The position numbers were made by a program, and so were the translations under genes. DNA of 64,000 nt from an uncultured Aeromonadales bacterium (GTDB lineage Bacteria; Pseudomonadota; Gammaproteobacteria; Enterobacterales; Succinivibrionaceae), in assembly GCA_902776275.1 (NCBI GenBank), contig CACYPI010000004.1, forward strand, positions 1-64,000, given 5' to 3'. Under the pieces are notes generated by a model, which ran no database searches, had not been told where the DNA came from, and saw only the letters and a list, made by a program, of their open reading frames with translations. Positions 52,598 through 58,790 of the stretch are shown piece by piece. How positions within the stretch are numbered: position 1 is the first letter of the stretch; each line of letters starts with the position of its first letter.

Positions 52598-53686
52598 TCA
52601 GTACTTGTCGAACATCTCCTGGATCTTCTTGGGATCGCTGGTCTGGGTCAGCGCCAGCTGGAGCAGGATGCGCGCCTTCTGCGGGTTCAAGTTGTCCGCG
52701 GTCACGCAGTCCTTCCACTGCTGCGCGGCATCGACGAAGCCGCTGCCGGTGCGGTTGGAGCGCACGACCACCACGCCTTTGGCGATGGCCTTCTCAAGTG
52801 CGGGGTAGGTGTCCTTGTGGATGGAGCCCATGCCCGAGCCGGCGCTCACGATGCCCTTGGCGCCGGCCGCGACCGCCGCGTCAGCCATCACGCCGTCGTC
52901 GCTCACATGGGTGTAGATGATGTCAACGCGCGGCAGCTTGTCGAGCTTTGAGACGTCAAACGGGGTCTTGGTGGTGTGCTCCCTCTCGACCTGCCTGTAG
53001 TAGCGCACCTTGCCGCCGGTGATCATGCCGACCGCGCCGACCTCAGGCGATGAGAAGGTCTGCAGCGAGGCGGTGTTGGTCTTGGTGTTGGCGCGGGCTG
53101 CGTTGATGGTGTCGTTGAGCGCCACCAGCACGCCGCGGCCCTTGGACTCAGGATCGGTTGCAACGCGCACGGCGTCCAGGAGGTTCATCGGGCCGTCAGC
53201 GGAGATCGCGGTGGCAGGGCGCATCGCGCCGACCATGACCACCGGCTTGTCGCTCTTCACTACGAGGTTCAGGAAGTAGGCGGTCTCCTCTAGCGTGTCG
53301 GTGCCGTGGGTTATGACGACGCCGGTCACGTCGTCGCGCTTTAGGAGCTCGTTGATGCGCTTTGCAAGCTTGAGCCAGATGTCCGTGGTCATGTCCTGCG
53401 AGCCGATGTTGGCGATCTGCTCGCCCTCGATCTTCGCGTAGTCCTTCATCCGGGGGACCGCGTCGATGAGCGTCTGGACGCCGAGGGCTCCTGCCTTGTA
53501 TCCGGTGGTCTGGGTTGCGGACTTGGCAGCGCCCGCGATGGTGCCGCCGGTTGCGAGGATGTAGACGGTGCCTTTAGCCTGCTGCTGCTCGGCGAAGGCT
53601 GCAGGGGAGGTGAGGGCGGCTGCGATGGGGGCGGTGATGATGGCGGTTGCCAGGGCGGCGGCTACGAGGGACTTTCTTAAGATCAT
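52598..53686 (-). CDS. ansB: Periplasmic L-asparaginase, type II
   Basis: This is a 362-residue enzyme hydrolysing L-asparagine to aspartate and ammonia in the periplasm. The signal peptide (MILRKSLVAAALATAIITAP, ending SPAAFA) is followed by the first catalytic threonine in VYILATGGTIAG, SQDMTTDIWLKLA, the second threonine-aspartate pair in VVITHGTDTLEETAYFL, and the lysine region KPVVMVGAMRPATAISADGP. In many anaerobic proteobacteria this enzyme feeds fumarate respiration through aspartate; that role is inferred. The neighbouring genes do not help. Confidence 0.95.
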   Translation of the reverse strand: MILRKSLVAAALATAIITAPIAAALTSPAAFAEQQQAKGTVYILATGGTIAGAAKSATQTTGYKAGALGVQTLIDAVPRMKDYAKIEGEQIANIGSQDMTTDIWLKLAKRINELLKRDDVTGVVITHGTDTLEETAYFLNLVVKSDKPVVMVGAMRPATAISADGPMNLLDAVRVATDPESKGRGVLVALNDTINAARANTKTNTASLQTFSSPEVGAVGMITGGKVRYYRQVEREHTTKTPFDVSKLDKLPRVDIIYTHVSDDGVMADAAVAAGAKGIVSAGSGMGSIHKDTYPALEKAIAKGVVVVRSNRTGSGFVDAAQQWKDCVTADNLNPQKARILLQLALTQTSDPKKIQEMFDKY

Positions 53687-54046
53687 GGCATTATTCCTTG
53701 AAAGCTTGTAGATGGATTGGTCTTTGCGATCGCCAGTCCATTGTATTGCCGCAGCGGGGCTTGGCGGCGCCTTGTGCCAAGGCAGGGCTTCCTAGGCGGC
53801 GTTTCAACTCATTTAGTGCGTGATTGCACTGCCGTTGACTCCATACCATCCACTGTCGTCGCGTTCCCGCTCCGCCCATTTGCTTCAATCCGCCCAAGCT
53901 TGTCCGCTTTCTGACAAACGCTTGTCATTCATCATTCAAGTCTCTGACAAGATGATGTCAATACTGTGATCGCTCTCTGATATTTGCTTGTCATTCTTCT
54001 CTATCCTTTGTGACAAACACATGTCATGCATCCGAGGTCAATTCAA
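53687..54046. promoter_or_regulatory. Control region of the second TRAP operon
   Basis: No gene is seen. The ansB promoter must lie at the low end. The high end holds four phased operators, described separately. Confidence 0.5.
53912..54026. promoter_or_regulatory. Four 16-bp palindromic operators at an exact 33-bp pitch
   Basis: TGACAAACGCTTGTCA (53912), TGACAAGATGATGTCA (53945), TGATATTTGCTTGTCA (53978) and TGACAAACACATGTCA (54011) each span 16 bases and start exactly 33 bases apart, about three helical turns. The consensus is TGACA-N6-TGTCA; only the third has a changed left arm (TGATA). The intervening 17-base spacers are not conserved. The array ends about 20 bases before the dctQ start. 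The RpiR-type regulator at the end of the same operon is the obvious candidate ligand-responsive binder. Confidence 0.85.
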
Positions 54047-54544
54047 ATGCAAGCAATCATGTCAGGCATATCCAAGGCGCTAGACGGATTCGTCGTGGCG
54101 CTTCTGGTAGTGATGTCGCTTTTGGTGATCGTAAACGTCGCCCTGCGCTTCCTCTTCAACTCAAGCATCGTGATGAGCGAGGAAGTCTCCCGCTTCATCT
54201 TCGTGTGGGTGGTCTACGTGGGGTCCATCATCGCGATGCGCGATGACGACCACATCTACGTGGACTTCATCCGCAAGAAGATGCCCAAGGGGGTGCAGAA
54301 GTTCCTCATCGTGTTCGTGAACCTCGTGATGCTGGTCTGCTGCCTGCTTTTCCTCAAGGGCAGCATCGAGCTCACCTCCATCAACATGTCCGACCACAGC
54401 CCGGTCGCAGGCGTGCCCATGGGCTACGTCTACGCCGCAGGCGCCGTCGGCAGCGCCGGCATGGCGATAGTCATCGTGTTAAGGCTCATCGGCTTCTTCA
54501 CGCGCGGGTTCGACCAGGCGCTCAAGGGCAAGGTTGCGGGGTGA
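54047..54544 (+). CDS. dctQ: TRAP transporter small permease (DctQ), second system
   Basis: This is a 165-residue four-helix protein. The ATG at 54047 has GAGG nine bases upstream; the earlier in-frame ATG at 54026 overlaps the last operator and has no ribosome site. Helices are VVALLVVMSLLVIVNVALRF, FIFVWVVYVGSIIAMR, FLIVFVNLVMLVCCLLFLKG and GYVYAAGAVGSAGMAIVIVL. RDDDHIYVDF after helix 2 is the usual DctQ motif. It is the first gene of a five-gene operon. Confidence 0.92.
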   Translation: MQAIMSGISKALDGFVVALLVVMSLLVIVNVALRFLFNSSIVMSEEVSRFIFVWVVYVGSIIAMRDDDHIYVDFIRKKMPKGVQKFLIVFVNLVMLVCCLLFLKGSIELTSINMSDHSPVAGVPMGYVYAAGAVGSAGMAIVIVLRLIGFFTRGFDQALKGKVAG

Positions 54545-54549
54545 TTTAA

Positions 54550-55827
54550 ATGACAGTTGCAATCTTCCTGGCGATCCTGCTCACCTCCGTCATCATCGGC
54601 ATCCCCATCGCCTTCTCGCTGCTCATGTGCGGCCTGGGGCTGATGTGGTACCTCGACATGTTCGACCCGCAGATCGTCGCGCAGTCGCTCATCAACGGCG
54701 CCGACAACTTCACTCTGCTGGCGATCCCGTTCTTCGTGTTCGCAGGCGACGTGATGAACGTCGGCGGCATGGCCAAGCGCCTCGTGGACCTGCCGATGAA
54801 GCTCGTCGGCCACAAGGCAGGCGGCCTGGGCTACGTCGTGATCATCGCTGCGGTGATCATGGCCTCGCTCTCAGGATCTCCTGCTGCCGACACCGCCGCA
54901 ATCGCCGCGATCATGTTCCCGATGATGTCGAGCGCCGGCTATCCCAAGGAGGGCTCGGTGGGCCTCATCGCCTCAGGCGGCATCATCGCCCCGATCATCC
55001 CTCCCTCGATCCCGTTCATCGTCATCGGCGTGACCGCCTCGGTGTCCATATCCCAGCTCTTCCTGGCCGGCATCGTCCCGGGCGTGCTCATGGGCGTGAC
55101 GCTGTGCCTCGTCTGGAGCTTCCGCGCCCGCAAGTTCGCCGCGGCCAAGAAGGCCACCGGCGCTGAAATCTGGGCCTCCTTCAAGTCAAGCGTCTGGGCG
55201 CTGATGCTCCCGGTGATCATCATCGGCGGCTTCAAGACCGGCGTGTTCACCCCGACCGAGGCTGGCGCGATCGCCTCCGTCTACGCGCTCTTGGTCTCGA
55301 TCTTCGTGTACCGCGAGCTCACGCTCAAGTCCATCTACAGGTGCCTGCTCAACACCGTCAAGACCACCGCCGTGATCATGCTGATGGTCGCCGCGGCCCA
55401 GGTCTCGGCCTACCTCATGACCGTCGCCGATCTGCCGCTGATGGTCACCGAGCTCTTAAAGCCCATGATCGGCCACCCGACCCTCCTCATGGCTCTGATC
55501 CTCGCGCTGCTGCTCGTCATGGGCATGGTGCTCGACCTCATCCCGATCGTACTCATCCTCGTGCCGGTGCTGATGCCGTTAGTCCAGGCCGCCGGGATCA
55601 ACGAGATCTACTTCTGCGTAATGTTCATCATCTGCTGCGCCATCGGCCTCATCACCCCGCCCGTGGGCAATGTGCTCAATGTGGTCTCGAGCGTGACCCG
55701 CGTGCCGTTTGAGCGCTCGGCAGCCGGCATCCTGCCGTACGCCGGGGCCCTCGTGGTGCTGATGTTCCTCATGCTCATCTTCCCTGAGATCATCATCGGG
55801 CCGCTTGAGTTCATGACCGGGAAGTAA
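54550..55827 (+). CDS. dctM: TRAP transporter large permease (DctM), second system
   Basis: This is a 425-residue permease with MASLSGSPAADTAAIAAIMF, GGIIAPIIPPSIPFIVIGVT, KTGVFTPTEAGAIASVYALL and GLITPPVGNVLNVVSSVTRV. It begins five bases after dctQ. It moves the acid captured by the DctP protein of the next gene. Confidence 0.95.
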   Translation: MTVAIFLAILLTSVIIGIPIAFSLLMCGLGLMWYLDMFDPQIVAQSLINGADNFTLLAIPFFVFAGDVMNVGGMAKRLVDLPMKLVGHKAGGLGYVVIIAAVIMASLSGSPAADTAAIAAIMFPMMSSAGYPKEGSVGLIASGGIIAPIIPPSIPFIVIGVTASVSISQLFLAGIVPGVLMGVTLCLVWSFRARKFAAAKKATGAEIWASFKSSVWALMLPVIIIGGFKTGVFTPTEAGAIASVYALLVSIFVYRELTLKSIYRCLLNTVKTTAVIMLMVAAAQVSAYLMTVADLPLMVTELLKPMIGHPTLLMALILALLLVMGMVLDLIPIVLILVPVLMPLVQAAGINEIYFCVMFIICCAIGLITPPVGNVLNVVSSVTRVPFERSAAGILPYAGALVVLMFLMLIFPEIIIGPLEFMTGK

Positions 55828-55883
55828 CGAAAGATTTTTAACCTATCAACAACCAGTTAATGCAAACATCAATGGAGACAACC

Positions 55884-56870
55884 ATGAACAAGACTTTCAA
55901 GATCCTCGCAGCCGCCGCCGCAGTCCTCGCCTTCGCCTCTTCTGCCGCAAACGCCAAGACCATCCTGCGCTTCGGCACTGACGTCTCGGTGCAGAACACC
56001 CAGGGCCAGGGCGCCAAGCACTTTGCCGAGCTCGTCAAGGAGCGCTCCAAGGGCAACATCGAGATCAAGGTCTACTTCGACAGCACCCTTGGCAACACCA
56101 TGTCGCTGATCTCCGGCGCCCGCGGAGGCACCCTCGACATCGCGATGGTCGGCAGTTCCAATGTCAGCGGCCTGGCCCCACAACTTGCCGTGCTCGACAT
56201 CCCGTTCATCTTCAAGGACAAGGCCCACGCCTACCGCGCGCTCGACGGCGAGGTGGGGCAGAAGCTGATGGCGACTCTCGAGGACAAGAACCTCAAGGGC
56301 CTGGCCTTCTTTGAAAACGGCTTCCGCAACATCACCAACAGCAAGAAGCCGATCGTCGAGCCCGATGACGTGAAGGGCCTCAAGATCCGCGTGCCTCAGA
56401 GCTCGATGCTGGTCGAGACCTTCAAGGCGCTGGGCGCCAACCCGGTGCCGATGGCCTTCGGCGAGCTCTACACTGCGATGGAGACCGGCGCCATCGACGC
56501 CCAGGACCACCCGATCTCGACCCTCTACGCCGGCAAGTTCTACGAGATCCAGAAGTACCTCTCGATGACCCGCCACGCCTACACCGCGGTCACCGTCATC
56601 ATGAACAAGAAGAAGTTCGACAAGCTCTCGGCCGATGATCAGAAGCTCCTGCTCGACTGCGCCCATGAGTCTGCCGCCTTCCAGCGCGATCTCAACTCCA
56701 AGCAGGAGGACACCATGATCGAGGAGATGAAGAAGACCGGCATCCAGGTCAACGACAACGTCGACGCCAGCGCCTTCGTCGATAAGACCAAGGACGTCCG
56801 CAAGATCTTCACCGACCAGAACGGCGACGAGTTCGTCAAGGCGATCGACGCGCTGCGCGACGCCAAGTAA
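55884..56870 (+). CDS. dctP: TRAP transporter substrate-binding protein (DctP), second system
   Basis: This is a 328-residue periplasmic protein. The ATG at 55884 has GGAG and opens the signal peptide MNKTFKILAAAAAVLAFASS, ending AANA. The ligand arginine lies in LKIRVPQSSMLVETFKALGA, and FGELYTAMETGAIDAQDHPI follows. Compared with DctP at 9.7 kb, Glu-Glu-Asn-Pro is replaced by Gln-Asp-His-Pro in the binding strand, so the ligands probably differ. A hydroxy acid is likely, given the dehydrogenase downstream. Confidence 0.94.
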   Translation: MNKTFKILAAAAAVLAFASSAANAKTILRFGTDVSVQNTQGQGAKHFAELVKERSKGNIEIKVYFDSTLGNTMSLISGARGGTLDIAMVGSSNVSGLAPQLAVLDIPFIFKDKAHAYRALDGEVGQKLMATLEDKNLKGLAFFENGFRNITNSKKPIVEPDDVKGLKIRVPQSSMLVETFKALGANPVPMAFGELYTAMETGAIDAQDHPISTLYAGKFYEIQKYLSMTRHAYTAVTVIMNKKKFDKLSADDQKLLLDCAHESAAFQRDLNSKQEDTMIEEMKKTGIQVNDNVDASAFVDKTKDVRKIFTDQNGDEFVKAIDALRDAK

Positions 56871-56892
56871 GCCTGAGGCCTTGCATCAAGGA

Positions 56893-56916
56893 GGGAGGGC
56901 TCCGGCCCTCCCTTGT
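56893..56916 (+). terminator. Hairpin after dctP (probable attenuator)
   Basis: GGGAGGGC and GCCCTCCC pair over a TCCG loop, followed by TTGTTCTC, between dctP and the dehydrogenase gene. Confidence 0.7.
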
Positions 56917-56943
56917 TCTCTAAAGCTTTTGAAGGGCAAGAAC

Positions 56944-57876
56944 ATGGACAGCAAAAGGATACTGACGGTCGTCAAGCTCAACCCCAAGGTCAAGGAGTAC
57001 CTGGACTCCAAGGGCTACGAGGTAGTGGGCGAGGACGGCATCGGCGACGGCAAGGACATCGAGATCGTGATGTCCAGCGGCAAGGGCAAGGTGCCCAAGG
57101 CCCTCATTGACCGCCTCCCAGATCTCAAGATGATCGACAACTTCGGCGTGGGCTACGACGGGGTTGATGTTGCAGAGTGCCGCGCCCGCGGCATCGGGAT
57201 CTGCGTGACCGCAGGCGTGCTCACCGAGGACGTGGCGGATCTGGGCGTGGCGCTTGCGCTCGCGCTCTGCCGCAAGATCCCCCAGTCGGACGCCTTCGTT
57301 CGCTGCGGAAGCTACAGCGAGGGGCTCAAGCCCAAGCAGGGCGTCAAGCTCTCGGGCAAGCGCGCGGGCATCGCGGGGCTCGGCCGCATCGGGCACGCGC
57401 TGGCGCAGAGGCTCGCGGCCTTCAACATGCAGATCTCCTACTTTGACGCCTACGCAAGCGAGCCCAGGTATCAGAAGATGCCGGATCTCGAATTGCTTGC
57501 GCGCGGGTGCGACATCCTCTTCATCTGCGCTGCGGCAACCCCGAAGAACCACAACATGGTCGACGCCAAGGTGCTCACCGCCCTTGGGCCATCTGGCATG
57601 CTCGTGAACATCGCCCGCGGCTCGCTCGTGGATGAGAAGGCGCTTTGCGATGCGGTCACCTCGGGCGCCATCGCAGGCGCTGCGCTTGACGTCTACGCAA
57701 GCGAGCCCAACGTGCCCAAGGCGCTCATCGCCTCGGACCGCACCGTGCTCACGCCGCACATCGCGAGCAACACGAAGGAGACGAGGGAGCTCATGGCGGA
57801 CACCGTCATCTCCAACCTCAAGGCCTTCGAGGAGCGCCGGGAGCTTGTGAACAACGCGCTGGCGTCGCGCAGGTAG
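56944..57876 (+). CDS. D-isomer-specific 2-hydroxyacid dehydrogenase
   Basis: This is a 310-residue NAD(P)-dependent enzyme of the glyoxylate/hydroxypyruvate reductase type. The ATG at 56944 follows AAGG. Motifs are NFGVGYDGVDVAECRARGI, Rossmann GIAGLGRIGHALAQRLAAF, the Arg in LVNIARGSLVDEKAL, the Glu region AALDVYASEPNVPK and the catalytic His in LTPHIASNTKETRELM. It probably acts on the hydroxy acid imported by the TRAP system of the same operon. Sequence alone does not choose the direction. Confidence 0.9.
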   Translation: MDSKRILTVVKLNPKVKEYLDSKGYEVVGEDGIGDGKDIEIVMSSGKGKVPKALIDRLPDLKMIDNFGVGYDGVDVAECRARGIGICVTAGVLTEDVADLGVALALALCRKIPQSDAFVRCGSYSEGLKPKQGVKLSGKRAGIAGLGRIGHALAQRLAAFNMQISYFDAYASEPRYQKMPDLELLARGCDILFICAAATPKNHNMVDAKVLTALGPSGMLVNIARGSLVDEKALCDAVTSGAIAGAALDVYASEPNVPKALIASDRTVLTPHIASNTKETRELMADTVISNLKAFEERRELVNNALASRR

Positions 57877-57908
57877 TAAGATCCGCGGCAGGTTTGGAGG
57901 ACAGGATC

Positions 57909-58790
57909 ATGATGGAGCAGGGCGCCACGCGCGCATTGTCTGAGGCGGCCGCCGCGATGCCGCTCTTCTCGCTCAACTCGCGCAGCCTCAGCGCCTCGGA
58001 CATCGGGATCGCCAACTACATCGCGCAGAACCCTTCAGAGGTCCAGACGCTCACCATCTCCGAGCTTGCCGCGCGCACCGAGGTCTCCGAGGCCACCATC
58101 TCGCGCTTTTGCCGCAAGATCGGATTGAACGGGGTGCAGAGCCTCAAGCTCGCGCTTGCAGGCTCCCAGGCCGGGGCCGACGCCGACATCGCCTCAGGCA
58201 AGATCACCAAGTCCGACGACTGCCGCAGCCTCATGCGCAAGGTCTTCTCGAACATCGTGCGCGGGCTCGAGTCCACCGAGGAGGTGCTCGATCCCGATGC
58301 GGTGGAGAAGGCGGCGCAGCTCATCGCCGCAACGCCGAGGCTCCTCGTATTCGGGTTTGGCACCTCGGGCACCATCTGCCGCGACATCGCCATCCGCTTC
58401 GTGCGCTTTGGCATGTCCACGGAGCTCATCACCGACGCCCACCAGCAGGGCACGGTGGCAGGGGCGCTCAACGATCGCGCGGTGGTCTTCGTGGTGTCAA
58501 ACTCCGGAAGCTCGGTAGATCTCATCCGCTCTGCGAAGATGGCCAAGAGGCGCGGCGCGAAGATCATCCTGCTCACCGCCCACCGCCAGTCCCCGCTCTC
58601 CAAGCTCGCTGACGTGGTGCTCATGGGCACCGGCCCTGAGATGGCGCACTTTGGCGAGTCCACCAACGTGAGGCTCGTCTTCCTCGCGATCATCGACGTG
58701 CTCTACGCGAGGCTCTCGCTTCTGCTTGAGGACAAGTACCGCCACAATCTCCAGGGCATGCGCGAGGCGATGGCGGAACTCAAGTGCTGA
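57909..58790 (+). CDS. RpiR/MurR-family transcriptional regulator
   Basis: This is a 293-residue regulator. The ATG at 57909 is eight bases after GGAGG; a TTG start 15 bases earlier lies inside that ribosome site region. The N-terminal RpiR helix-turn-helix includes LTISELAARTEVSEATISRF and CRKIGLNGVQSLKLALAG. The C-terminal SIS domain shows LLVFGFGTSGTICRDIAIRF and VVFVVSNSGSSVDLIRSAKM, fitted to a phosphosugar or acid ligand. It closes the TRAP/dehydrogenase operon and is the natural candidate for the TGACA-N6-TGTCA array in front of it. Confidence 0.92.
   Translation: MMEQGATRALSEAAAAMPLFSLNSRSLSASDIGIANYIAQNPSEVQTLTISELAARTEVSEATISRFCRKIGLNGVQSLKLALAGSQAGADADIASGKITKSDDCRSLMRKVFSNIVRGLESTEEVLDPDAVEKAAQLIAATPRLLVFGFGTSGTICRDIAIRFVRFGMSTELITDAHQQGTVAGALNDRAVVFVVSNSGSSVDLIRSAKMAKRRGAKIILLTAHRQSPLSKLADVVLMGTGPEMAHFGESTNVRLVFLAIIDVLYARLSLLLEDKYRHNLQGMREAMAELKC

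Follow-up and report, generated by a model that had tools for sequence, protein, structure and literature searches.

The window analysed here, a 64-kb stretch of DNA (64,000 nucleotides), contains an operon on the plus strand in which the TRAP small permease dctQ (54047–54544), the large permease dctM (54550–55827), the solute-binding protein dctP (55860–56870), a D-2-hydroxyacid dehydrogenase of the glyoxylate/hydroxypyruvate reductase type (56881–57876), and an RpiR-family regulator (57894–58790) follow one another. A type II asparaginase gene starts at 53686 on the minus strand, and the 360-bp divergent intergenic region between it and dctQ houses an array of four palindromic boxes, of which the RpiR-family protein is the proposed binder. 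The Pfam domains DctQ, DctM, and DctP are encoded together, as expected of a DctPQM-type TRAP transporter, but none of the operon proteins exceeds an equivalog cut-off of the NCBIfam models. Both permeases resemble the YiaMN sugar-acid transporter most, yet stay well under the cut-off (YiaM, 96.5 of 260 bits; YiaN, 569 of 800 bits), and the transporter was not assigned to the 2,3-diketo-L-gulonate type (YiaMNO). The start codon of dctQ is best placed at ATG 54047 instead of ATG 54026, which overlaps box 4, because a GAGG lies just upstream of the former and the ortholog alignment begins there.

The regulator carries an N-terminal PF01418 domain (HTH_6, residues 30–93, E = 3e-17) followed by a PF01380 domain (SIS, residues 146–272, E = 1e-18), both over the Pfam cut-offs, which is the RpiR/MurR architecture. 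Its nearest relatives among the curated models are RpiR proteins of the AlsR/HexR type, all of them well under the NCBIfam cut-offs: the protein scores 145 bits against a cut-off of 296 for HexR, 157 of 400 bits for AlsR, and 96 of 408 bits for MurR.

The four-box array

The boxes, all read on the plus strand, are TGACAAACGCTTGTCA (box 1, 53912–53927), TGACAAGATGATGTCA (box 2, 53945–53960), TGATATTTGCTTGTCA (box 3, 53978–53993), and TGACAAACACATGTCA (box 4, 54011–54026). Each starts exactly 33 bp after the one before, as the earlier note on this DNA had read them ahead of the TRAP operon, and all four starts were recovered. That note described four TGACA-N6-TGTCA boxes; the description is exact for boxes 1, 2, and 4, whereas box 3 is TGATA-N6-TGTCA, one mismatch away, with a TGATA half-site that is also used in related genomes. 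Relative to the likely dctQ start codon, box 4 spans positions -36 to -21.

The consensus TGAYA-N6-TRTCA covers all four boxes, which are its sole exact matches in the window. The 420 bp upstream of dctQ thus hold four exact matches against 0.0025 expected, and none of 2000 dinucleotide shuffles of this segment reached four. Exact TGACA-N6-TGTCA occurs elsewhere in the genome at two sites on other contigs (C7:1168 and C8:26701, the second within an open reading frame), each isolated, and we treated both as chance matches. Box pairs in the source genome (2.54 Mb) are confined to the array, which is present once, and four boxes with three consecutive 33-bp steps were seen in the window only. The 17-bp spacers agree at just 5–8 of 17 positions when unit is compared with unit, and Tandem Repeats Finder called no repeat on the array; recent tandem duplication was ruled out as its origin on these two grounds, and the 33-bp spacing has therefore been kept without recent duplication. 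With the shuffles at zero, the spacers not duplicated, and the pairs conserved in other genera, the reading of the array as a chance or tandem-repeat artefact with no regulatory role is already refuted and retains a negligible probability.

The earlier note also suggested that the promoter itself is built from the boxes, with ATGTCA of box 2 (53955–53960) as the -35 element and TGATAT of box 3 (53978–53983) as the -10 element. The 17-bp distance between the two hexamers is indeed correct, and ATGTCA combined with GATATT at 18 bp ranks among the better local pairs, but the sigma-70 scan gave no passing match. Using approximate hexamer weights taken from general knowledge, the best local score was 7.2 against a median best of 6.9 in shuffled sequence, and the box 2/3 pair reached 4.1, no better than shuffled sequence. 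Moreover, the T/C at the position in question varies among boxes and genomes as a part of the operator. We therefore regard a promoter made of the boxes as unlikely; the operator sequence itself probably accounts for the -35/-10 resemblance.

RpiR orthologs and paired boxes in the family

Among 57 whole genomes of the family Succinivibrionaceae, the regulator belongs to an ortholog clade with 39–49% identity, compared with about 33% or less for paralogs, that extends to five further genera. The recognition helix is almost invariant within the clade and differs in the paralogs. Order-wide (346 genomes) and phylum-wide (398 genomes) searches found no member of the clade outside the family. In genus g2 (G004, G005, G006, and G007), the ortholog is the last gene of the same TRAP operon; in G009, an RpiR fragment lies at a contig end with the transporter on the same contig; in g4, g5, and g10, the ortholog is downstream of gnd (6-phosphogluconate dehydrogenase); and in G022 (g8), it adjoins other genes.

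The comparison covered nine further RpiR-linked promoters, drawn from four other genera, four before TRAP operons (G004, G005, G007, and G009) and five before gnd (G014, G016, G018, G019, and G027); G006 was left out, its promoter not being readable. Every one of the nine carries two 16-bp TGAHA-N6-TDTCA boxes whose starts are exactly 32 or 33 bp apart. The TGAHA form was widened after the gnd boxes had been inspected, and hence the main test was rerun with the window-derived TGAYA consensus. The best 32/33 pair then had 1–3 mismatches, whereas shuffles averaged about 7–8, and 0 of 600 shuffles were as good as the real sequence in each of the nine promoters, which, being homologous within a genus, amount to about four independent lineages. 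Over lags of 17–60 bp, TGAHA pairs with at most one mismatch fall at step 32 in four promoters and at 33 in five, and the only remaining pairs lie once each at 21 and 42, also whole turns. G007 and G005 have a weak second box, and the position of the boxes relative to the start codon varies from about -30 to -320. The proposal in the earlier note that the boxes lie on one helix face, about three turns apart, is thus borne out by conserved phasing, and the absence of boxes from orthologous promoters, which it had named as the outcome that would speak against its reading, was not what the search returned.

Exact TGACA-N6-TGTCA pairs are restricted to the window across the family because the relatives use TGATA or TGAAA half-sites, so a looser consensus is needed. 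Mismatch-free pairs in the 57 genomes are limited to G000 and G009 (step 33) and to G014 and G016 (step 32), in each case before RpiR-linked genes. When one mismatch was allowed, all ten linked promoters were recovered together with eight further matches elsewhere, while the reversed control pattern gave four matches in the same scan. The TRAP operon of G014 has no pair, though an RpiR ortholog is encoded elsewhere in that genome, and that of G018 has no 32/33-bp pair.

Several loci show further arrangements. In G018, a 33-bp pair with one mismatch lies about 120–170 bp before the glucose-6-phosphate isomerase gene pgi (L197:1501–1549, equal to G018:C96:16928–16976); this genome has an RpiR ortholog, the pair at pgi is found only there and is not conserved in relatives, and pgi is a possible local target. 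In G022 (L163, G022:C162), two imperfect boxes 34 bp apart lie 75 and 41 bp before gnd, with a gluconokinase gene nearby, and the RpiR ortholog of G022 does not adjoin gnd. In G007 (L148:484–528), imperfect direct repeats TGACAAGCAGTGGCAAACAGTAACAAACACTGACAAACACTG are located between the box pair and dctQ.

Loci without the regulator

The transporter genes dctQ-dctM-dctP, with dctM 85–86% identical, are also encoded in six genomes of the genus to which the window belongs (G031, G032, G033, G041, G047, and G048), none of which has an RpiR ortholog. No 32/33 box pair was found at these six loci, where the best candidates had 6–7 mismatches, the level of shuffled sequence. Regulator and operators are therefore gained or lost jointly, whereas the transporter is retained. 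Overall, box pairs co-occur with RpiR orthologs and are conserved beside their operons: a pair at 32–33 bp is present in 10/10 readable RpiR-linked promoters and in 0/6 where the transporter occurs but the ortholog does not. Boxes, spacing, conservation, and co-occurrence are all read directly from the DNA, and on this footing the link of the boxes to the RpiR gene, as predicted operators of the protein encoded at the operon end, is well supported and agrees with the earlier note.

Half-sites of the TGACA/TGTCA type are not exclusive to RpiR proteins, and unrelated bacteria have TGACA-N6-TGTCA pairs at other spacings, so another transcription factor encoded elsewhere, such as a GntR- or TetR-type dimer, might bind the boxes, with the RpiR gene a mere neighbour. 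However, across five genera and two operons (TRAP and gnd) the pairs track the RpiR ortholog, and loci that have this transporter but lack the ortholog lack the pairs as well, which makes a foreign binder very unlikely. When 84,980 species were scanned for TGACA-N6-TGTCA pairs, the matches listed in unrelated bacteria had a variety of other steps, most often 19, 20, 22, or 23, which says little about the operator of the window. Also among the matches listed, several contigs of the uncultured bacterium RUG10619 contain TGACACCTAGGTGTCA palindromes in arrays of four to six, one every 22–23 bp, with similar flanks (L003:803–909, L030:730–814, L038:7235–7340, L051:6223–6330, L083:1482–1612, and L115:1547–1654), looking like a dispersed repeat element, and several Nocardia species (L002, L007, and others) have TGACAGCATGCTGTCA-like palindromes paired at a distance of exactly 20 bp, probably the tandem operator of an unrelated repressor.

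The RpiR-less relatives also bear on the function of the transporter. A gluconokinase gene (gntK) lies divergently beside dctQ in all six (L165–L170), and phosphogluconate dehydratase (edd) is next after gntK in the three loci read far enough (L223:84–2406, L224, and L225); both genes are absent from the window. Because gntK and edd stand beside the transporter and gnd is the other target, this gene neighbourhood suggests gluconate or 2-ketogluconate as the probable TRAP substrate and points to 6-phosphogluconate or KDPG as the effector. The 2-hydroxyacid dehydrogenase of the operon could reduce 2-ketogluconate.

Proposed mechanism

We consider it quite probable that the four palindromes are operators of the RpiR protein, with a dimer on each box, a tetramer on each pair, repression as the outcome, a sugar-acid phosphate as the effector, and the operon under its own control. 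One HTH dimer would occupy each 16-bp TGAHA-N6-TDTCA palindrome, and one SIS-domain tetramer would hold two boxes 32–33 bp (three helical turns) apart on one helix face, so that the four boxes of the window would offer room for two tetramers. One tetramer per pair is the simplest model because RpiR proteins of known structure are tetramers whose effectors bridge the dimer–dimer interface (PMC12713135) and because a tetramer spanning two DNA sites has been proposed for the S. pneumoniae regulator NanR. Occupancy would most likely repress dctQ transcription, a direction favoured by the last box lying 36–21 bp before the start codon. A phosphorylated sugar acid formed after uptake, with 6-phosphogluconate and KDPG as the first candidates, may bind the SIS domains and alter occupancy; repression would last until the sugar-acid phosphate arrives, and the operon would control itself.

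An effector-loaded RpiR protein might instead activate from the upstream boxes, as proposed for S. pneumoniae NanR, which is reported as an activator with a tetramer stabilised by effector (PMC12713135). Boxes 1 and 2, at 135–87 bp before the start codon, and the pairs of G005, G007, and G009, more than 160 bp upstream, would suit such a role, but box 4 reaches to within 21 bp of the start codon, and the proximal boxes of the gnd promoters lie 34–91 bp before theirs, which are typical repressor positions. Activation is thus the less favoured direction, although a possible one, and with box positions from near the start codon to far upstream a single steric-repression mechanism may not suit all promoters.

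More broadly, the orthologs may represent an undescribed RpiR subfamily in which the tetramer acts as a three-turn ruler; 32–33-bp pairs would be the recognition unit, kept while the targets shifted between gnd and gluconate-type TRAP operons, and the window's species would have doubled the pair into a cooperative array of four sites. We give this wider proposal an even chance. The conserved pairs themselves offer a natural replicate: for a predicted RpiR operator, the distance between two sites is maintained as well as their sequence, and regulator and operators appear or vanish jointly with the transporter retained. Regulator, operator code, and targets are together open to direct testing in a bacterial family that has received little study.

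Comparison with known RpiR systems

We found no description of RpiR tandem operators or RpiR–TRAP regulons in the literature, and the operator code and the phased-pair architecture are new within a known regulator family. S. pneumoniae NanR is similar in combining HTH and SIS domains and in controlling an anionic-sugar uptake operon, and its consensus TCTGAAACTACTTTCAAA includes TGAAA/TTTCA half-sites (PMC12713135), as in some boxes here. However, its core spacer is 4 instead of 6, its second site, 23 bp downstream, is a degenerate half-site rather than a full palindrome at 32–33 bp, and it is an activator and only a remote relative. A dimer per site is described for it, and a tetramer is proposed to bridge the palindrome and the downstream half-site (PMC12713135). 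The present pairs bear on a question from that work, namely how RpiR tetramers use two DNA-binding dimers.

HexR of gammaproteobacteria, including Pseudomonas, likewise exerts RpiR-family control over hexose-phosphate and gluconate-related genes (PMC5489143, PMC5343134), but its site is TTGT-N7-8-ACAA in contrast to the TGAHA-N6-TDTCA boxes, which therefore do not fit a HexR operator, and the operators here are in phased pairs. Pseudomonas RccR is also an RpiR tetramer, provides the closest solved structure (8JU9), and has two 15-bp palindromes before aceE (PMC5489143). Compared with the boxes described here, the RccR half-site is TGTAGT/ACTACA, the aceE sites are 68 bp apart, and the target genes are different.
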